From: Desulfobulbus sp.
GTDB taxonomy: Bacteria; Desulfobacterota; Desulfobulbia; Desulfobulbales; Desulfobulbaceae
Reading direction: 5' to 3'
DNA: 64,000 nucleotides
Assembly: GCA_011051875.1 (NCBI GenBank)
Contig: DRKI01000100.1
Coordinates: forward strand, 1-64,000
Shown here: positions 4,894-14,964 of the stretch, one piece after another
Numbering within the stretch: the first letter of the stretch is position 1
Layout: each line of letters starts with the position of its first letter
Program-made: the position numbers and the translations under genes
The notes under the pieces: generated by a model
Seen by the model: only the letters and a program-made list of their open reading frames with translations
Database searches by the model: none
What the model was told of the DNA's origin: nothing

Positions 4894-5676
4894 TTACCTG
4901 GCATGGTTCGGCCGGATGAGGGTGTCCGGCATCCGGGCGAGAAGCTGCTGCCAGCGGCTGAGCCGGTCGCTTCCCCCCACCTTCCTGCCCCGGCCGCGCT
5001 GCTTGGCCAGCCAGAGCCCCTTGCCGTTGAAGCTGTAGACCGGCACCAGGTCGGTCCGCTTCGAGGCGGGCTCTATGGCCCCGGTCAGGTTGTCGAGGAC
5101 CAGGGGAACCGCACCCGGCTCGGGATAATAGGCAAGCACCATGTGCGCCCTGTTCAGGCGAATGGCCTTGACATAGGTGAGATAGAGCCTGTCCTCGGGC
5201 ACGTCCAGGGCCCGGAGGGTGAAGTACTTGGCCAGCGCGAAGTCCTCGCAGTCGCCGCCGTTACTGGCGAGAAATTCCACCGGCGTGGCCCAGTAATCCT
5301 CCTGCCGCCAGTGGATGGTATCATCAATGAAGTGCATGCGGTTGAAAAATCGGTTGACCCTCTCCAGTTTTTCTCTCTCTGTTCCCAGGTTTCCTTCGCG
5401 GATGAGCCGCTGCCAGGCCAGCAGCCGGTTCCGGGCACCGGGACCGTAGCTTTTTTCGGCCTTCTGCAGGATCTGCCGGTCAATGGTAAAAGGCTGTTTC
5501 CCAGGCAGAAGAGCCGGGGCAAGGATAAGCAGGGCGAGGCAGGAGACGACCATGGCCGGGAGGCTGTCCCTGGAAAACAGGGTGCGGTGCCGGCCGGGTT
5601 GTCCTGTTGTTGGCTTGATGGGGCAGGGTCTCAAATCGGTTCGGGAACAGGGGATGATGGCCGGGGGCGGAGACAT
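4894..5676 (-). CDS. lapG: LapG-like periplasmic cysteine protease (transglutaminase-like, BTLCP family)
   Basis: 260 residues from the ATG at 5676, which has GAAGGACG just upstream. A shorter start at 5553 (219 residues) gives a cleaner signal sequence (MVVSCLALLILAPALLPG) but lacks a ribosome site. The catalytic triad is visible: Cys143 in GGDCED, His178 in NRAHMVL and Asp195 in LVLDNL. The LapG family cleaves the N-terminal retention module of LapA-type adhesins and releases them from the cell surface when c-di-GMP is low. The gene lies between the TolC-type channel and lapD on the same strand, the usual partner order. Confidence 0.88.
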   Translation of the reverse strand: MSPPPAIIPCSRTDLRPCPIKPTTGQPGRHRTLFSRDSLPAMVVSCLALLILAPALLPGKQPFTIDRQILQKAEKSYGPGARNRLLAWQRLIREGNLGTEREKLERVNRFFNRMHFIDDTIHWRQEDYWATPVEFLASNGGDCEDFALAKYFTLRALDVPEDRLYLTYVKAIRLNRAHMVLAYYPEPGAVPLVLDNLTGAIEPASKRTDLVPVYSFNGKGLWLAKQRGRGRKVGGSDRLSRWQQLLARMPDTLIRPNHAR

Positions 5677-5719
5677 TCGTCCTTCGGCCGGGAGGTCAAT
5701 TGTCTGCGGATGGGGATGG

Positions 5720-7135
5720 TTACGGCGGCCGCTGCCGCTTTCCTCCTTCGACCCGGCTCTCCCGGGGCCATGCCAGTCCCAGGGCGGGCACGAACCTGCC
5801 GATGCCGTTGAGAACCCGGCACCGGGCATAGATCTCGTCATACTCGGCATTGACATACTCCCTGTTGGCGTCGATACGTTCCGCCTCCGAGTCGAGCACG
5901 TCGAGCAGGGTCCGTTTACCGATGTTCCACTGTTTGCCGTACGCCTGCGCCGTGACCGTGGCAAACTGCATCCGCAGCCTGAGGAAGGGCAGCCGGCCGG
6001 ACAGGGCCCGATAGGCCATCCATGACAGGCGGATGGACTCCTCTACCTGACGCAGGGTATGGTTGCGGATCTCCCGGGCCTCGTTCACCAGGTGCATGGT
6101 TTCCAGTTTCCTGGCCTGGTCCTTCCAGCCGTGGAACAGGTTGTAGCGCAGCCGCAGCATGGCGCGCAGATTGTCTCTTTCCTGGTATGTGTAGTTGGTT
6201 TCATCCTCGTGGATCTGGTCCACCTCGATGTCGATGACCGGCATGAAAGGGCTGCGGGCGACCTTGTCCTGGGCCTTGCGCGCATCGAGATCGGCATGGG
6301 CGGATTTCAGGGTCGGATGATTCTCCACGGCCAGGCGTCTGGCTTCTTCCAGCGAGGGCGGCATCTGGCCGTTATCGATGTCCGGCCTGGCGAGGTCAGC
6401 CGGACGGTGCCCAACCACGGCCGTGTAGCTGGTCTCGGCATCGACCAGGTTCTGTTCCGCGACCACCACGTTGGCATGGGCAAGGTTGAGGCGGCTCCGG
6501 ACCTGGTCCATGTCCGCCTTGCGGTCAATGCCCGATCTGCTGCGCAGACTGATCTGGTCAGCGATGCGCTGGTGGATGGTCAGGTTTTCCCGGGCAAGCT
6601 CGAGCAGGGCCTGGTTGCGCAGGACCTCCAGGTAGACCTTGGCTGTCCTGAGGGCCGTGTTCTCGGCCGCGCTCCGAACCAGGAAGGCCTGGGAGCGTAC
6701 CCGGGCCTCCTGGCGCTCCACTTCGCCTCTGGTGGCCATGCCGGTGAAGACATTCTGGCGCAGGCTCAGGCGCAGTTCCCGGGGCGAGAGATCGTCGGCA
6801 AAGGGTTCCTCCACATGGTCCCTGCCCACACCGGCGATGAGGTCGAGGACCGGAAAATAGCCTGACCTGGCCTGCCGGAGCTGCTGATCGCGGGCAAGCC
6901 GGTTATAGCCGGCGGAAAGAACGTCGGGATTGGTGGTGATCATGGTCTGGACTGCCTCCTGCAGGGTTTCAGCGCCGAGGGTGGCGGTGAACAGGAGGAG
7001 GCAGGCGGGGACAAGGAGCATCCCCAGGGCTGCCGGGGCGGTTCTACTCCCGAAACGCACCCACTGGCCCCGGGCCGACAGGGAATGGCGTCGAGTGGGC
7101 CGGCGCGGGGTGGAGGCCTGGTGTTGTTTTTTCAT
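5720..7135 (-). CDS. TolC-family outer membrane channel of type I secretion (LapE-like)
   Basis: 471 residues from the ATG at 7135. The N-terminus is a long basic leader ending in a hydrophobic stretch with a likely signal-peptidase site (LLLFTATLGA before ETLQEAV); the long n-region makes the exact start uncertain. The mature part has the two-fold repeated outer-membrane efflux protein pattern: LQEAVQTMITTNPDVLSA near the start, long helical segments (RIADQISLRSRSGIDRKADMDQ), and a C-terminal repeat with YNLFHGW and GKRTLLDVLDSE. It would provide the outer-membrane duct for the LapB/HlyD exporter. The start region overlaps no other gene; a divergent DUF721 gene begins at 7373. Confidence 0.87.
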   Translation of the reverse strand: MKKQHQASTPRRPTRRHSLSARGQWVRFGSRTAPAALGMLLVPACLLLFTATLGAETLQEAVQTMITTNPDVLSAGYNRLARDQQLRQARSGYFPVLDLIAGVGRDHVEEPFADDLSPRELRLSLRQNVFTGMATRGEVERQEARVRSQAFLVRSAAENTALRTAKVYLEVLRNQALLELARENLTIHQRIADQISLRSRSGIDRKADMDQVRSRLNLAHANVVVAEQNLVDAETSYTAVVGHRPADLARPDIDNGQMPPSLEEARRLAVENHPTLKSAHADLDARKAQDKVARSPFMPVIDIEVDQIHEDETNYTYQERDNLRAMLRLRYNLFHGWKDQARKLETMHLVNEAREIRNHTLRQVEESIRLSWMAYRALSGRLPFLRLRMQFATVTAQAYGKQWNIGKRTLLDVLDSEAERIDANREYVNAEYDEIYARCRVLNGIGRFVPALGLAWPRESRVEGGKRQRPP

Positions 7136-7372
7136 CGGTACCGGGGGTGGCTGTTGAGCTGTTGGGGGCAGGCCGTGTCTGCCCTGCCTTGTGTATCGAA
7201 GCGAAGGGCTTTGCGCATGCGTTGCGGGGTGATGACTCTCTTGGGAGTCCATCAGGAATATCTTCTCATCTTTTTGGACGCCGGTCAAATGTTGAGCGGT
7301 TTTTTTTAAGTGTTCCGGGTTTTTATTGATTTTTTTCCGAGCAGGTGGCAGAGATGTCGCAAATGGACTAAC

Positions 7373-7855
7373 ATGATTGGTATGGAAAGGGACAAGGGCC
7401 CCCGCCTGCTGGGGCGGCAGATGGAACAGATATATGGCAGCAGGGGATGGCATCACCCGTGGCAGATCTTCGCCCTGGTCCGGGAGTGGCCGGAGATCGC
7501 CGGGCCGGAGATCGCCGGCCAGAGCATGCCGGCCTATCTGCGGCGGGACGTGCTCTGGGTGTATGTACGCAGTTCCGCCATGATGCAGTACGCCCAGATG
7601 CAGAAACCACAACTGATCGAAGCGGTGAACCAGCGGCTCGAGGGACTCGCGATCAGCGATATCCGCTGGATGCTGGAGCCGGCCGACCTGCCGGAACCGG
7701 TCGTGCGGGACTGGCGGCCCAGCGGGCCCGCGCCCGATCCGGAGCGGGAAGAGGCCTTCCGCAGGATGGCCTCCACAGTGGCCGATCCGGAGTGCCGGGC
7801 CGCACTTTTGGCCCTGTGGCGATCTTTTCAGCGGGATCCCGGGCAGGAGAAATGA
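7373..7855 (+). CDS. DUF721 (DciA-like) family protein
   Basis: 160 residues. The first 100 residues follow the DUF721 pattern: an N-terminal helix, the segment LVREWPEIAGPEIAGQSMPAYLRRDVLWVYVRSSAMMQYAQMQKPQLIEAVN (strand-rich core with a conserved W and a P in the middle), then a basic/acidic tail. Proteins of this family in other bacteria (DciA) help load the replicative helicase, but many short members are uncharacterised. Start codons at 7373 and 7382 are both possible; neither has a strong Shine-Dalgarno. It is divergent from the TolC-type gene and followed by a 350-bp gap. Confidence 0.7.
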   Translation: MIGMERDKGPRLLGRQMEQIYGSRGWHHPWQIFALVREWPEIAGPEIAGQSMPAYLRRDVLWVYVRSSAMMQYAQMQKPQLIEAVNQRLEGLAISDIRWMLEPADLPEPVVRDWRPSGPAPDPEREEAFRRMASTVADPECRAALLALWRSFQRDPGQEK

Positions 7856-8205
7856 ACAAGTCCTGCCTTGCCCTTGCCCGAGAAATGGTATATTCTATCA
7901 GATTGTGCGCGCGTTTTGCCACATGAGATGGAAACTGCGTTGAAAAACCGGCCCGGACCGGCCAGTGATCAGGGCGGGAGAAATGATACCCTGTGGTTGC
8001 CTGATCCGGTTATGGCGCTATGGGGACAGATGCCGGCCAGCAGAGGGGGCGGGCAGGCGGCGGTGTCCATTTTCGCACCAGCGGCCGCCCGGCATGACGA
8101 CCTTGCCTGATTCGGGCTGCCCAGCGTGGATATGCTGTTCCGGCGTACAGTCACTGTTCCTGTTCCTGTTCCGTTTCCGCCTTACTCCGAGCCCCGGTGA
8201 ACCCG
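7856..8205. other. 350-bp intergenic gap with a possible promoter
   Basis: No credible gene. A plus-strand candidate promoter is present near 7864-7891: TTGCCC, about 15 bp, then TATATT. The remainder, including a short CT-rich stretch before the cysteine synthase fusion gene, holds no hairpin followed by a T-run and no known riboswitch pattern that I can recognise. Confidence 0.3.
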
Positions 8206-10542
8206 ATGAGACCCCAGTACAAACAGATTACAGAGCTGATCGGCGGGACGCCCCTTGTCCTGATTTCCCGCATGAACCCGGTGCAGGGAGTGACGATTCT
8301 CGGCAAGCTGGAGTCCCGCAATCCCGGTGGATCGGTCAAGGACCGGATCGCGCTGTCCATGATCGAGGCGGGCGAACGGAGCGGCGAGCTGACCCGGGAC
8401 AAGATCCTGCTCGAGGCGACCAGCGGCAATACCGGCATCGGCCTGGCCATGGTCTGCGCGGCCAAGGGCTATCGCTGCCAGCTGGTGATGCCGGAGTCAG
8501 CCTCGGTGGAGCGGCGCCAGATCATGCAGGCCTATGGCGCCGAGATCATCCTCACCCCGGCCAAGCGGTCCACGGACGGCGCCATCGAGAAGGCCTATGC
8601 CATGGCGCGGGAACACCCGGACCTCTATTTCCTCACCGACCAGTTCAACAATCCCGACAACTGGAAGGCCCACTACCACATCACCGGTCCCGAGATCTGG
8701 GAGCAGACCAGGGGTGAAGTGACCGATATCATCGTCACCCTGGGTACCTCGGGTACGGCCATGGGCCTGTCGAAGTGGGCCGCCGACCATCATCCGGAGG
8801 TACGGATCATTGCCGTGGAACCCTTCTACGGCCACAAGATCCAGGGGCTCAAGAACATGAAGGAGTCCTACCGGCCCGGGATCTTCGACAAGTCCCTGCC
8901 GCACAGGATCGTCAATGTTCCGGACGAGGATGCCTTCCGCACCGCCCGCATGCTGGCCAGGAAGGAGGGGATCCTGGTCGGAATGAGCAGCGGCGCCGCC
9001 ATGTTCGCGGCCATGCAGCGGGCGCGGGAGATCAGCGGGGGGACCATCGTCACCATCTTCCCCGACGGCGGCGAGCGTTACCTGAGCACGCCTCTTTTCG
9101 TGCGCCAGGTAAAAAGCAGTCCCAGGGCGCCGGAGCTCAAGCTCTACAACACCATGACCCGGAAGAAGGAGATCTTCCGGCCCATCCGTGGAGACCGGGT
9201 CACCCTGTATGCCTGCGGGCCCACGGCCTACGAGTCCCCGAACCTTGCCCACTGCCGCCGTTTCATCGTTGCCGATCTCATCATCCGCTACCTGGAGCTG
9301 AAGGGCTACACGGTGGAGTCCTATATGAACTTCACCGATATCGACGACAACACCATTGCCGGCGCCGAGGCCGCCGGCCTGCCCCTGCAGGAGTTTACCG
9401 AGAAGTACATCGACGAGTTCATGCAGGCCATGAATACCCTGGGCGTACGCCGGGCCACCGGCTATCCCCGGGCCTCGGTCCATGTCCAGGACATGATCGA
9501 GATCGCCCACGAGCTGATCCACAAGGGATATGCCTATGAAAAGCACGGCTCCATCTACTTTGATATCTCGAAGTTCAAGCGTTACGGCCGGCTGTCCGGG
9601 ATCGACCTGAGCAAGATCAGGGTGGGGCGGACCGTAGATCTCGACGACTACGAGAAGGACAATCCCCGCGATTTCACCCTGCTCAAGCGTTCCACCCTGG
9701 CGGAGCTGAAAAAGGGGATCTTTTTCGAGACCGACTGGGGCAACGTGCGGCCGGGCTGGCATATCGAGTGTTCCGCCATGTCCACCCGCTATCTCGGCGA
9801 GACCCTGGACATCCATACCGCCAGCCAGAACCTGGTGTTCCCCCACCACGAGAACGAGATCGCCATTGCCGAGTCGCTCACCGGCAAGCCGCTGGCCAAT
9901 TACTGGCTCCACTCCGGCCTGCTGCTCAAGGACGGCCGCAAGATGGCGGCCGAGGCCGGCAACGTGGTCACTCTGCAGGAGGTCCTGGACCGTGGCTACA
10001 CGGATCGCGAGATCCGGTTCATGCTGCTGGGCGTCCATTACCGCAAGCCACTGCGTTTTTCCTACAAGCGGCTCGACGCGGTGCGCAAGGCACTCAAACG
10101 GATCGACGAGTTCACCCGCAAGCTCCTCTGCCAGCCACCCGGCCTGCCCCACCCGGAGGTGGCGGTCTACATCTCCGGCCTGGAGCGCCGTTTCTGCCGG
10201 GCAATGGATGACGACCTCAACATCTCGGCCGCCCTGGGGGCGCTCTTTGACTTTATCAAGAAGACCAACCCGGTCCTGCAGGCGGCCAGCCTGGACCGGG
10301 AACAGAAAAACGAGATTCTTGATGTCCTGAAACGGATCAACACCGTGCTCGGGGTCCTGCGCCTGGAGCACTGTCCCCTGGCACCGGAGATCGACCGGCT
10401 GATCCGGGAGCGTGAGCGGGCACGGCAGAAGAAGGACTGGACAGCAGCCGATTCCGTGCGCGAGGAACTGCTCCGCAAGGGCGTCACCATCCACGACACG
10501 GTCTCCGGGCCGGTCTGGGAGCAGTCCGGGGAGGGAGACTGA
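8206..10542 (+). CDS. fusion of cysteine synthase (CysK/CysM fold) and a divergent cysteinyl-tRNA synthetase
   Basis: 778 residues in one uninterrupted frame. Residues 1-305 are a complete PLP-dependent cysteine synthase: Lys45 in GGSVKDR, the TSGNTGIG substrate loop, the phosphate loop GTSGTAMG, GMSSGAAM and FPDGGERYLST. Residues about 308-778 align along the full length of CysRS (LKLYNTMTRKKE at the start, GWHIECSAM, FPHHENE, DALR-type MDDDLN, and the C-terminal RERARQKKDWTAADSVREEL). Zinc and cysteine ligands are kept (Cys337, Cys522, HHENE). The ATP-site signatures are not: HIGH is NLAH (346-349), KMSKS is KMAAE (579-583), and GGGSDL is TASQNL. Either it is an unusual synthetase or a CysRS-derived ligase fed directly by the synthase. 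The ATG at 8206 follows GGTGA; a GTG at 8197 is an alternative. Confidence 0.9.
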   Translation: MRPQYKQITELIGGTPLVLISRMNPVQGVTILGKLESRNPGGSVKDRIALSMIEAGERSGELTRDKILLEATSGNTGIGLAMVCAAKGYRCQLVMPESASVERRQIMQAYGAEIILTPAKRSTDGAIEKAYAMAREHPDLYFLTDQFNNPDNWKAHYHITGPEIWEQTRGEVTDIIVTLGTSGTAMGLSKWAADHHPEVRIIAVEPFYGHKIQGLKNMKESYRPGIFDKSLPHRIVNVPDEDAFRTARMLARKEGILVGMSSGAAMFAAMQRAREISGGTIVTIFPDGGERYLSTPLFVRQVKSSPRAPELKLYNTMTRKKEIFRPIRGDRVTLYACGPTAYESPNLAHCRRFIVADLIIRYLELKGYTVESYMNFTDIDDNTIAGAEAAGLPLQEFTEKYIDEFMQAMNTLGVRRATGYPRASVHVQDMIEIAHELIHKGYAYEKHGSIYFDISKFKRYGRLSGIDLSKIRVGRTVDLDDYEKDNPRDFTLLKRSTLAELKKGIFFETDWGNVRPGWHIECSAMSTRYLGETLDIHTASQNLVFPHHENEIAIAESLTGKPLANYWLHSGLLLKDGRKMAAEAGNVVTLQEVLDRGYTDREIRFMLLGVHYRKPLRFSYKRLDAVRKALKRIDEFTRKLLCQPPGLPHPEVAVYISGLERRFCRAMDDDLNISAALGALFDFIKKTNPVLQAASLDREQKNEILDVLKRINTVLGVLRLEHCPLAPEIDRLIRERERARQKKDWTAADSVREELLRKGVTIHDTVSGPVWEQSGEGD

Positions 10543-10604: not shown

Positions 10605-10681
10605 GCGCCAGTAGCTCAGCTGGATAGAGCACCGGCCTTCTAAGCCGTAGGTCGCAGGTTCGAATCCTGCCTGGCGTACCA
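10605..10681 (+). tRNA. tRNA-Arg (anticodon UCU)
   Basis: 77 nt with encoded CCA. The acceptor arm is GCGCCAG/CTGGCGT (first pair G-U), the D-arm GCTC/GAGC, the anticodon loop CTTCTAA giving TCT, and the T-arm GCAGG TTCGAAT CCTGC. The top pair of the anticodon stem (C-T) is a mismatch. It reads AGA/AGG codons. It sits 62 bp behind the cysteine synthase fusion gene on the same strand and is followed at once by a strong hairpin. Confidence 0.97.
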
Positions 10682-10686
10682 AAATC

Positions 10687-10733
10687 AAGCCAATAAAATC
10701 AAACAATACGGTTTGATTTTATTGGCTTTTCTT
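10687..10733 (+). terminator. strong hairpin terminator behind tRNA-Arg
   Basis: A perfect 18-bp inverted repeat: AAGCCAATAAAATCAAAC (10687-10704), a 6-nt loop, and its exact complement (10711-10728), ending in TTTTCTTG. It starts only 5 nt after the CCA end. The stem is AT-rich and unusually long for a terminator. Confidence 0.75.
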
Positions 10734-12365: not shown

Positions 12366-13370
12366 ATGAATATACATGAGCCGGAACAGCAGGGGCCCTT
12401 CCATGCGCTTACTCCGGACCGGGTCCTTTCCCTGGTGGAAGGCGCGTTGGGCAGGAGATGTGTCAACCTGTGCCGCCCGCTGAACAGCTATATAAACCGG
12501 GTCTATGAGCTCGAAGACGAGGATGGCCGGGGGCTGATCGTCAAGTTTTACCGTCCGGGCCGCTGGTCCAGGCAGGGACTGCAGGACGAGCATGATTTCC
12601 TTCTCGAGCTAGCCGACCAGGAAGTTCCGGTCATCGCGCCGCTCTCCATGCGGAACGGTTCAACCCTGGGCAGTGATGGCCACCTGTTTTTTACCGTTTT
12701 CCCGAAAAAGGGTGGCCGCCTGGTAGATGAGTACAGTGATGGGCAGTGGCTGGAGTTGGGACGGCTGATCGGCCGTGTGCACATGGTTGGGGCTGCCCGG
12801 AGTCCTGCGGACCGGCCCCTGCTGGTCCCGGGGCAGACCACCAGGGCCCAGGTGGATTACCTGGTGGGCGGGGGCTTCATCCCGTCCGATCTGATCGGGT
12901 CGTTTTCATCTCTGGCCGCCCGGCTCATCGATGAAACCGGGCCTTTGTTCGAGGATGCGGAACTGATCCGCATCCACGGGGACTGCCATAGCGCCAATCT
13001 CATCTATCGTCCGGATGAATCTTTTTTCCTGGTCGACCTTGACGACATGGTGGTCGGACCACCGGTCCAGGATATCTGGATGCTGCTGCCCGGAGAGCCG
13101 GAAGAGGCGTCTGTGGAGTTGGACATCTTTCTCGAGGGTTACGAGACCTTCCGTATGTTTGACCGCCGAAGCCTTCGGCTTATCGAGCCCTTGCGGGCCA
13201 TGCGTTTCATCCATTATGCTGCCTGGTGCGCCAGGCAGGTCGCCGAGGACGGTCAGGCGCCGGTCATGATGAATTTCGGGACCCGGGAGTACTGGGAAGT
13301 AGAGATCCGGGATCTTGCGGATCAGCTGGAACGGATTGTGTCCATGCTGCGGCCGTCCGGAAACATGTGA
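12366..13370 (+). CDS. SrkA/RdoA (YihE)-like stress response protein kinase
   Basis: 334 residues, close to SrkA. It has the APH/choline-kinase-like fold: catalytic loop IHGDCHSANLIY (HGDxHxxN) and metal-binding LVDLDDMVVGPPVQD, an early RPLNSYINRVYELEDEDGRGLIVKFYRP segment with the ATP-binding Lys, and a C-terminal helical part (AMRFIHYAAWCARQ). In E. coli SrkA is a Ser/Thr kinase that protects stressed cells. GGGAG precedes the ATG. It is followed after 7 bp by a sensor histidine kinase gene, so the two are probably one transcript. Confidence 0.88.
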   Translation: MNIHEPEQQGPFHALTPDRVLSLVEGALGRRCVNLCRPLNSYINRVYELEDEDGRGLIVKFYRPGRWSRQGLQDEHDFLLELADQEVPVIAPLSMRNGSTLGSDGHLFFTVFPKKGGRLVDEYSDGQWLELGRLIGRVHMVGAARSPADRPLLVPGQTTRAQVDYLVGGGFIPSDLIGSFSSLAARLIDETGPLFEDAELIRIHGDCHSANLIYRPDESFFLVDLDDMVVGPPVQDIWMLLPGEPEEASVELDIFLEGYETFRMFDRRSLRLIEPLRAMRFIHYAAWCARQVAEDGQAPVMMNFGTREYWEVEIRDLADQLERIVSMLRPSGNM

Positions 13371-13377
13371 TACAGCG

Positions 13378-14964
13378 ATGCGATTTCTACGGGAACATTG
13401 GCGGTGTTTTCGCGGCGTTTTCACGGCAAGCGACGTCAGCTTTCTTCTGTTGCGCCTGTCAACCGTCCTGGGCGGATATATCTGGCTGCTTGCCGCGCCT
13501 CTGTCCTCGGCAGATGCCATCGACCTGTTCAAATCGCTCATCGTCTTTTTCTTCTATTCCCTCTTTATCTACCTCCTGATCTTTCTCAACCCGGCCCGAA
13601 TCCGCCAAGTCTATGGCCTCTCCCTTATTCTCGATCTTTTCTTTATCTACTGGATGGTGCACCTGCAGAACAGCTTTGCCAACAGCTTCTTTCTGGGCTA
13701 TTACCTGCTGGTCGCGCTGCACTCCTTTTATTTCGGTATTTCGTTCGGCCTGCTGGCCGCGGCCCTGGCAACCGTACTCTACAGTCTGAACTTTCTGCCT
13801 TTCGCGGCGCAGGTCCACTGGACCGAGCTCGGAATCCGGGTCAGTTTCCTGTTTCTGATCGCGCTGCCGCTGGGCTTCATTTCCCAGAAGATGCAGCAGG
13901 ACCGGAAACGGATCGAAGAACTGAACCGGCAGCTCGCCGATTCCCTGGAGAGCCTGGAACGGATGCAGGACAAGATGGTCCGCAGCGAAAAACTCCTGGC
14001 CCTGGGGCGGTTGACCTCGGACATCGCCCACGAGATCCGCAATCCGCTCTCTGCCCTGGGCGGACTCAACAGGCGGATGCTCAAGACCCTTCCTCCGGAG
14101 AGCAAGGAGCGCAAATATGCCGAGACCATCGCCAGGGAGGTGAACCGGCTGGAGGCTATTCTCCGGGACATCGTCACCCTGACCATGGTGGGTGAACACC
14201 TGCAGCGCGATGATATCAACCGGGTCATCGCCGGGGCGGTCAGCTATGCCCGGACCATCTGCCTGGAGGGAGAGCGTGTCCGCCTGGTCGAAAACTATGC
14301 TCCCGACCTGCCCCGGGTCTACCTGGAGCCAGATCAGCTGCGGCAGGTCATGGGACAGCTGGTGTGCAATGCCGTGGATGCCATTGAGGGCGAAGGGGTT
14401 ATCACCATCAGTACGGGCACCAGGTTCAAGAACGAGATCCTCTGGGTGACCGTCTCGGTACACGATACCGGCCCCGGGATCCCGGAAGAGCAAATGGAAC
14501 GGCTTTTCGAACCATTCTATTCCACCAAACGGACCAACCAGGTCACAGGGCTCGGCCTTGCCATTGTCCACAAGATCATGGAAGATCACCGTGGTTTTGT
14601 CCAGGTGGAAAGCGGCGGAAAGGGTGAGGGCACCACCTTTACCCTCTATTTTCCCTACCAGCCCGAGGAAGAGGACGGTAAGAAGCCCTGCTGGGAATAC
14701 CTTCACTGCGGTATCGAGTCCGATCCCTCCCGCAGTTGCCCCGCCTATCCCTATTTCGGCCGAATCTGCTGGGCCATTGCCGGCACCCTCTGCGAGGGCA
14801 AGGTGATGGGTACCTTTGCCGAGAAGACCCACGACTGCCGCCAGTGCCCCGTGTTTCAGGATATGTGGCGGGAGTGCAGGCAGGATGGCCGGGAACCCGA
14901 ATGTCCCCGTCTCCTGGGTGAGCGGCATGCCCGGACCGGCGGACACAAATCTCCGACCACCTGA
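13378..14964 (+). CDS. membrane sensor histidine kinase with C-terminal Cys-rich CW module
   Basis: 528 residues. N-terminal region with about five or six membrane helices (about 25-175) and no large periplasmic domain, a coiled-coil linker, HisKA with H-box SDIAHEIRNPLSALGG, and HATPase_c with N-box QLVCNAVDAIE, DTGPGIPEE and TGLGLAIVHKIM. The last 95 residues add a Cys/Trp-rich module with CWEYLHC, CPAYP, CWAIAGTLC and CRQCPVF, resembling the two-CW modules of deltaproteobacterial sensors, which may bind metal. No response regulator lies next to it, so its partner is unknown. It starts 7 bp after the srkA-like gene. Confidence 0.9.
   Translation: MRFLREHWRCFRGVFTASDVSFLLLRLSTVLGGYIWLLAAPLSSADAIDLFKSLIVFFFYSLFIYLLIFLNPARIRQVYGLSLILDLFFIYWMVHLQNSFANSFFLGYYLLVALHSFYFGISFGLLAAALATVLYSLNFLPFAAQVHWTELGIRVSFLFLIALPLGFISQKMQQDRKRIEELNRQLADSLESLERMQDKMVRSEKLLALGRLTSDIAHEIRNPLSALGGLNRRMLKTLPPESKERKYAETIAREVNRLEAILRDIVTLTMVGEHLQRDDINRVIAGAVSYARTICLEGERVRLVENYAPDLPRVYLEPDQLRQVMGQLVCNAVDAIEGEGVITISTGTRFKNEILWVTVSVHDTGPGIPEEQMERLFEPFYSTKRTNQVTGLGLAIVHKIMEDHRGFVQVESGGKGEGTTFTLYFPYQPEEEDGKKPCWEYLHCGIESDPSRSCPAYPYFGRICWAIAGTLCEGKVMGTFAEKTHDCRQCPVFQDMWRECRQDGREPECPRLLGERHARTGGHKSPTT

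Follow-up and report, generated by a model that had tools for sequence, protein, structure and literature searches.

The gene at positions 8206–10542 on the plus strand of the window, by which we mean the whole 64,000-nucleotide stretch of Desulfobulbus sp. DNA that was analysed, encodes a cysteine synthase joined to a protein derived from cysteinyl-tRNA synthetase (CysRS). In our best explanation, to which we assign a probability of about 0.5, a working CysM-type synthase that probably uses O-phosphoserine would be combined with a CysRS-derived domain that binds tRNA-Cys, is not a synthetase and probably has a regulatory role. The single origin of the fusion, its distribution, its coexistence with a canonical CysRS, the pattern of motif loss, the conservation of anticodon residues and the purifying selection on the gene were established directly. 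No description of a cysteine synthase–CysRS-like fusion was found in the open-access literature, to which the search was confined, so that an earlier report is possible. Current annotation models would name the gene either cysteine synthase or CysRS, masking the fusion.

Organization of the fusion gene

One unbroken frame joining both enzymes had been proposed in a preliminary description made from the sequence alone, and our analysis confirmed it: the frame encodes 778 amino acids and carries the domains of both enzymes. From the N- to the C-terminus, these Pfam-type domains are PALP (residues 8–287), tRNA-synt_1e (324–626), DALR_2 and CysS_C, and the window protein scores above the cut-offs of both TIGR00435 (CysRS) and TIGR01136 (cysteine synthase). 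An alternative GTG start at 8197 would add three residues. The features of the locus are:

8206..10542 (+), CysM-type cysteine synthase/CysRS-like fusion gene, 778 aa, single open frame
8206..9105 (+), PLP-dependent cysteine synthase half (PALP, CysM-like); GGSVKDR, TSGNTG and GTSGT invariant or nearly so across the fusions
8851..8853 (+), Lys216, aligned with Arg220 of Mycobacterium tuberculosis CysM, invariant in the fusions
9106..9135 (+), flexible and unconserved linker joining the halves, about residues 301–310; pLDDT below 50 at 300–307, entropy highest of all segments
9136..10095 (+), CysRS-like catalytic half, residues 311–630; PF01406 302 bits, fold like that of E. coli CysRS (1u0b)
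9214..9216 (+), Cys337, zinc ligand equivalent to E. coli C28 by alignment with CysRS
9241..9252 (+), NLAH (residues 346–349) at the HIGH position, by motif comparison
9769–9771, 9844–9846 and 9856–9858 (+), the other zinc ligands C522, H547 and E551
9817..9834 (+), TASQNL (residues 538–543) at the GGGxDL position, by motif comparison
9940..9954 (+), KMAAE (residues 579–583) at the KMSKS position, second lysine gone, by motif comparison
10378..10539 (+), CysS_C anticodon-binding tail; R736, R740, W745, D749, R752 and D764 correspond to E. coli R423, R427, W432, D436, R439 and D451
10605..10681 (+), tRNA-Arg(UCU), 62 bases 3' of the fusion gene, a neighbour conserved within the order
10687–10728, terminator-like hairpin beyond tRNA-Arg(UCU)

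The fusion gene stands alone; its upstream flank is a DciA-like gene of the same orientation, and downstream an alanine dehydrogenase gene lies on the opposite strand. The arrangement with tRNA-Arg(UCU) was seen at most examined loci of the window's order and was absent from the examined loci of other orders; this tRNA gene is probably merely co-transcribed. Neighbourhood comparison revealed no conserved operon partner and no neighbour hinting at regulation. Elsewhere in the window, a type I secretion-like locus (210–2372, 4894–5964 and 5720–7612, all on the minus strand) comprises a peptidase-type ABC transporter (assigned by eye), an outer membrane efflux protein (Pfam OEP) and a protein resembling LapG-type transglutaminase-like cysteine proteinases (again by eye), and 13315–14961 (+) encodes a histidine kinase whose C-terminal stretch is rich in cysteine (CWEYLHCG...CPVFQDMW).

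The AlphaFold2 model of the window protein reached a mean pLDDT of 88.7; that of a fusion lacking the zinc site reached 88.9 and shows an intact fold. Both predicted halves match solved CysK/CysM and CysRS structures, and the window model covers the E. coli CysRS–tRNA-Cys complex (1u0b) across 482 columns; with a pTM of 0.58 for the window protein, the relative placement of the halves is uncertain.

Distribution and origin of the fusion

Unbroken homologues of the fusion occur in most genomes of the window's family. At broader scale, 171 of 194 genomes of the order carry the fusion, as do 156 of 395 sampled from the phylum; a few of the homologues counted are cut off by contig ends. A wider contig scan gave at least two fusions among the matches listed, both of the window's order by name; the relatives known by name are Desulfobulbus and Desulfocapsa MAGs. 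The preliminary description had considered a sequencing error at two normal genes; because more than 100 unbroken homologues are spread across family, order and phylum, a frame error or chimera is ruled out.

Phylogenetic analysis united the CysRS halves in one clade (support 100) that excludes every canonical CysRS, even one encoded in the same genome, and the synthase halves in one clade separate from standalone CysK (support 99). The single apparent standalone protein within the synthase clade (L226) is an open frame that stops just inside the CysRS half. Since each half forms its own clade, a single fusion event followed by shared descent is the simplest reading of these trees. One genome (G079) carries two full-length copies, each 68% identical to the window protein. 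In the complete genome G018, of the same family, the fusion frame (L136) is shorter, with 704 amino acids and a match to residue 598, possibly reflecting a frame change near the gene end; this genome yielded no other cysteine synthase match. Expression of D. vulgaris DVU0663, annotated cysK, is raised in biofilm (PMC3431258), and this gene may be homologous to the fusion.

A canonical CysRS accompanies the fusion

Whether the genome holds a second, canonical cysS had been named as a point to check, and such a gene, with HIGH, KMSKS and GGG, was found on contig C34; its product is about 40% identical to the CysRS half of the window protein. Searching with this canonical CysRS, we detected a separate CysRS gene alongside the fusion in 76 of 80 fusion genomes. 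These 76 include two genomes (G317 and G371) whose separate CysRS is more divergent; there, a CysRS of a different type (L233 and L236, with CGGTDHIDVHH and KKMAKS) replaces the usual one.

For the remaining four genomes (G005, G006, G001 and G069), in which no separate CysRS was found, we turned to the downstream neighbour of cysS in four genera, a gene which we named AmmeMemoRadiSam B-like from its sequence. This gene is present in 4/4 tested genomes having cysS and is missing in all four of the genomes in question as well as in G070 and G014, which also have no listed cysS. Because the usual neighbour is missing too, missing contigs are the best explanation for the absence of cysS from these six MAGs, and we rejected the idea that the fusion is their sole CysRS. 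The second neighbour of cysS is uninformative as an assembly test, its linkage not being universal among genera. One ordinary tRNA-Cys is encoded in the window's genome and about one per genome was recovered by pattern search, which gave no sign of a dedicated second tRNA-Cys.

The CysRS half has lost activation residues and kept anticodon-reading residues

To follow the fate of functional residues, we compared 101 distinct full-length fusions with 110 canonical CysRS, using E. coli numbering. The second lysine of KMSKS, K269, is found in 110/110 canonical enzymes and was lost in 100 of the 101 fusions, the alignment of the sole exception (L177) being doubtful. The first HIGH histidine, H37, is kept in 35 fusions versus 109/110 canonical enzymes and lost in 66, being Asn in the window protein, and G226 is kept in 4/101 versus 110/110. 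Zinc-site residues are more often retained (C28 in 87, C209 in 88 and E238 in 80 of the 101 fusions; each in 110/110 canonical sequences), with both zinc cysteines gone in 13 fusions. H37, K266, K/R269 and the entire zinc site occur together in 16/101.

The anticodon-binding tail shows the opposite pattern. R423 is present in all 101 fusions and all 110 canonical enzymes; R439, D436 and D451 are each present in 101/101 fusions, and every fusion has R or K at position 427 and an aromatic residue at position 432. In the E. coli CysRS–tRNA-Cys complex, G34 forms hydrogen bonds with R427 and D436 and is stacked by W432 (PMC12684709); the window protein has these contacts as R740, W745 and D749. 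In a phylogeny comprising 40 fusions and 39 canonical enzymes, losses of H37, K266, K/R269 and the zinc site each require several changes, the anticodon residues zero. A zinc-less member scores 136 bits versus 302 for the window protein in the catalytic domain, and 45 versus 37 bits in the tail.

For the window protein, the motif readings of the preliminary description (NLAH, TASQNL and KMAAE) proved correct, and the zinc/cysteine site and the tRNA-binding C-terminus are preserved as it had stated: C337, C522, H547 and E551 complete the site formed in E. coli by C28, C209, H234 and E238, and the CysS_C tail keeps its anticodon residues. NLAH/KMAAE is not universal across the fusions, however, since the motifs vary by lineage. 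Within the order they mostly read [NH][LIMV][AGS][HL]CRR and KM[SAT]xx; those of other lineages extend from HLGxxRR/KMSRS, a form that could still aminoacylate, down to no recognisable motif. Two residues are invariant in the fusions without being so in canonical CysRS, R352 beside the HIGH position and R495; together with a short insertion at about 498–504, they may serve as an interface with the synthase half or bind a new ligand.

Purifying selection on the CysRS half is strong (dN/dS about 0.05); pairwise values for its catalytic part are 0.04–0.06 among members of the window's genus, and a zinc-less pair gave about 0.1. The catalytic half drifts faster than canonical CysRS: across same genome pairs, its mean identity is 59% versus 70% for the canonical enzyme, and the drift is greatest in the zinc-less clade (55% versus 76%). 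Tail identity is 52% overall versus 50% in canonical CysRS, and 53% versus 65% in the zinc-less sample of three pairs only. Judged from these comparisons, the constant feature of the fusions would be the tRNA-reading residues and an active synthase, and the variable one the parts needed for cysteine activation, though conserved tail residues could be partly structural. The tight constraint on the catalytic half in the window's order suggests that it may do more than hold tRNA, by binding cysteine or a nucleotide or by catalysis.

The synthase half is probably an O-phosphoserine sulfhydrylase

The PDB matches of the synthase half are CysM/CysK enzymes at 40–47% identity, and the PLP lysine K45 within GGSVKDR is present together with the TSGNTG and GTSGT loops; sequence and genome content together predict synthase activity, O-phosphoserine use and tRNA binding for the fusion. 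The window's genome also carries a cysE–cysK pair. We surveyed synthases and CysE in 30 well assembled genomes, chosen for completeness and not at random. A second synthase plus CysE occurs in 17/30, mostly adjacent, and one genome (G339) has a second synthase-like gene without CysE. In the other 12 the fusion is the sole cysteine synthase and CysE is absent, no CysE-like match being better than about 3e-12. In those 12 genomes neither another cysteine synthase nor CysE is visible, which makes O-acetylserine an unlikely substrate; such genomes might still obtain cysteine or O-acetylserine by another route.

K216, invariant in the fusions, aligns with Arg220 of M. tuberculosis CysM, which we take to set O-phosphoserine specificity, so that a positive charge is kept at this position. 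The M. tuberculosis sequence used as reference is identical to PDB 3dwg, and this enzyme is annotated as O-phosphoserine sulfhydrylase in the PDB. A lysine occupies the corresponding O-phosphoserine-site position in a Thermococcus enzyme (PMC5120207). The alignment gives a second, independent reason to expect O-phosphoserine, and from this one residue and the genome content we conclude that the fused synthase is probably a CysE-independent O-phosphoserine sulfhydrylase. A SepRS/SepCysS route was ruled out, as the 24 genomes searched gave no SepRS match above the cut-off and just weak partial matches.

A proposed role and its alternatives

The CysRS-derived half probably no longer serves as the cell's cysteinyl-tRNA synthetase. 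It has kept the fold, the zinc/cysteine site in most lineages and the residues reading the GCA anticodon everywhere. In our proposal this half is a tRNA-Cys binder, possibly also a cysteine binder where a lineage retains the zinc site, and such binding would inform the synthase half of the cysteine supply to translation, comparable to the roles of the GCN2 HisRS-like domain and of HisZ elsewhere. Retention of tRNA recognition without charging suggests sensing or docking. We favour sensing because the halves are covalently joined and because translation-linked control would be sensible where sulfide is rarely limiting, and on these grounds we hypothesise that the CysRS half regulates the synthase; the well-kept zinc pocket in the window's order leaves room for cysteine sensing as well. 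The far-reaching form of this idea, that the charging state of tRNA-Cys, read by a built-in, catalytically retired CysRS, directly controls the principal cysteine synthase across much of the phylum, we put forward only tentatively.

Docking without sensing would mean that the CysRS half holds the synthase on tRNA-Cys or the translation machinery, where it would feed the canonical CysRS. Such tethered supply fits kept tRNA recognition, lost chemistry and an active synthase; however, no partner or docking motif was found, the neighbourhood is unconserved and free cysteine diffuses fast, which makes it unlikely in our view.

We also doubt, above all for the window protein, that the fusion is a second CysRS, still active despite relaxed motifs and channelling cysteine made by the attached synthase half, an option of the preliminary description. 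The intact zinc and tRNA sites of the window protein, the 16 fusions with H37, K266, K/R269 and the whole zinc site, the TIGR00435 score and the strong purifying selection on the catalytic half speak for it. Against this, the KMSKS lysine is gone in 100/101 fusions and the first HIGH histidine in the window protein, every complete assembly has a separate CysRS as well, and sister lineages keep the gene despite loss of the zinc site and all signatures.

Slightly less probable still is small-molecule control as in HisZ, with the CysRS half acting as a feedback-inhibition sensor of cysteine, or of cysteine plus a nucleotide, and tRNA binding incidental. The zinc/cysteine ligands kept in most fusions and the fusion-specific R352 and R495 in the catalytic half would suit such a sensor, but 13 fusions have lost both zinc cysteines and none the anticodon residues, so the constraint common to all fusions lies on the tRNA side.

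The two other options of the preliminary description fared worse. A tRNA-dependent or small-molecule cysteine ligase, MshC-like or for non-ribosomal peptide use, is very improbable: class I paralogues have been recruited in such ways (PMC2922099), but here the activation motifs are degraded, partner genes are absent from the neighbourhood and the tRNA domain is kept, unlike in MshC. Least probable is a CysRS-type cysteine persulfide synthase, an activity reported for CysRS and needing PLP; single mutation of K73, K76, K266 or K269 strongly lowers it in E. coli CysRS (PMC5660078), the window protein has N, A, K and A there (three of four lysines gone), no fusion has all four, and the PLP of the fusion belongs to its synthase half. 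The earlier interpretation thus stands for the fusion, the altered ATP-site signatures, the kept zinc and tRNA sites and the second cysS, and is disfavoured in its three functional options. Beyond it, we find that the tRNA-reading residues are constant and that the fused synthase is often the sole cysteine synthase of a CysE-less genome.

Many of these organisms have ample sulfide, so the means by which they limit cysteine synthesis are of interest. If the regulatory reading is correct, a single polypeptide would link the making of cysteine to translation. The fusion would represent a CysE-independent, probably O-phosphoserine-based route, on which several lineages would rely as their sole cysteine synthase. 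The fusions also form a clear natural series, with synthetase chemistry lost step by step and RNA recognition retained, making the idea that a synthetase paralogue can become a tRNA sensor directly testable.

Comparison with known systems

The fusion shares with CysRS (TIGR00435) the fold, the zinc ligands in most members and the anticodon-binding tail; it differs in having no second KMSKS lysine, in its altered HIGH and GGG motifs, in being joined to a synthase and in being a second copy beside a separate CysRS. With the O-phosphoserine sulfhydrylase CysM of M. tuberculosis, to which it is 39% identical, and with cysteine synthase B it has in common the PLP fold II and, with the former, a positive residue at the Arg220 position; genomes with the fusion often lack CysE, although the window's own has it. 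The fusion differs in bearing a CysRS-derived C-terminal half, its substrate being predicted from sequence and genome content. The cupin-linked MetRS paralogue (PMC2922099) is likewise a supernumerary class I synthetase joined to a second domain, but it concerns another amino acid, is a proposed peptide ligase and lies in a conserved operon. MshC, a bacterial CysRS paralogue too, acts on a sugar amine, and sequence matches to solved MshC structures end before the C-terminal tRNA domain; an MshC would be expected to have intact activation motifs and no anticodon-binding domain, whereas the fusion has degraded motifs and the tail.

In the HisZ–HisG system, a synthetase paralogue serves an amino-acid biosynthetic enzyme. 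HisZ is a separate subunit without a tRNA-binding domain, whereas the fusion keeps this domain in the same chain as the enzyme. The HisRS-like domain of GCN2 is a degenerate synthetase half joined to another enzyme, with the tRNA-binding parts retained. If tRNA-Cys sensing holds true, the fusion would be a bacterial counterpart of this sensor, built from a class I CysRS instead of a class II HisRS and acting on a biosynthetic enzyme, not a kinase.
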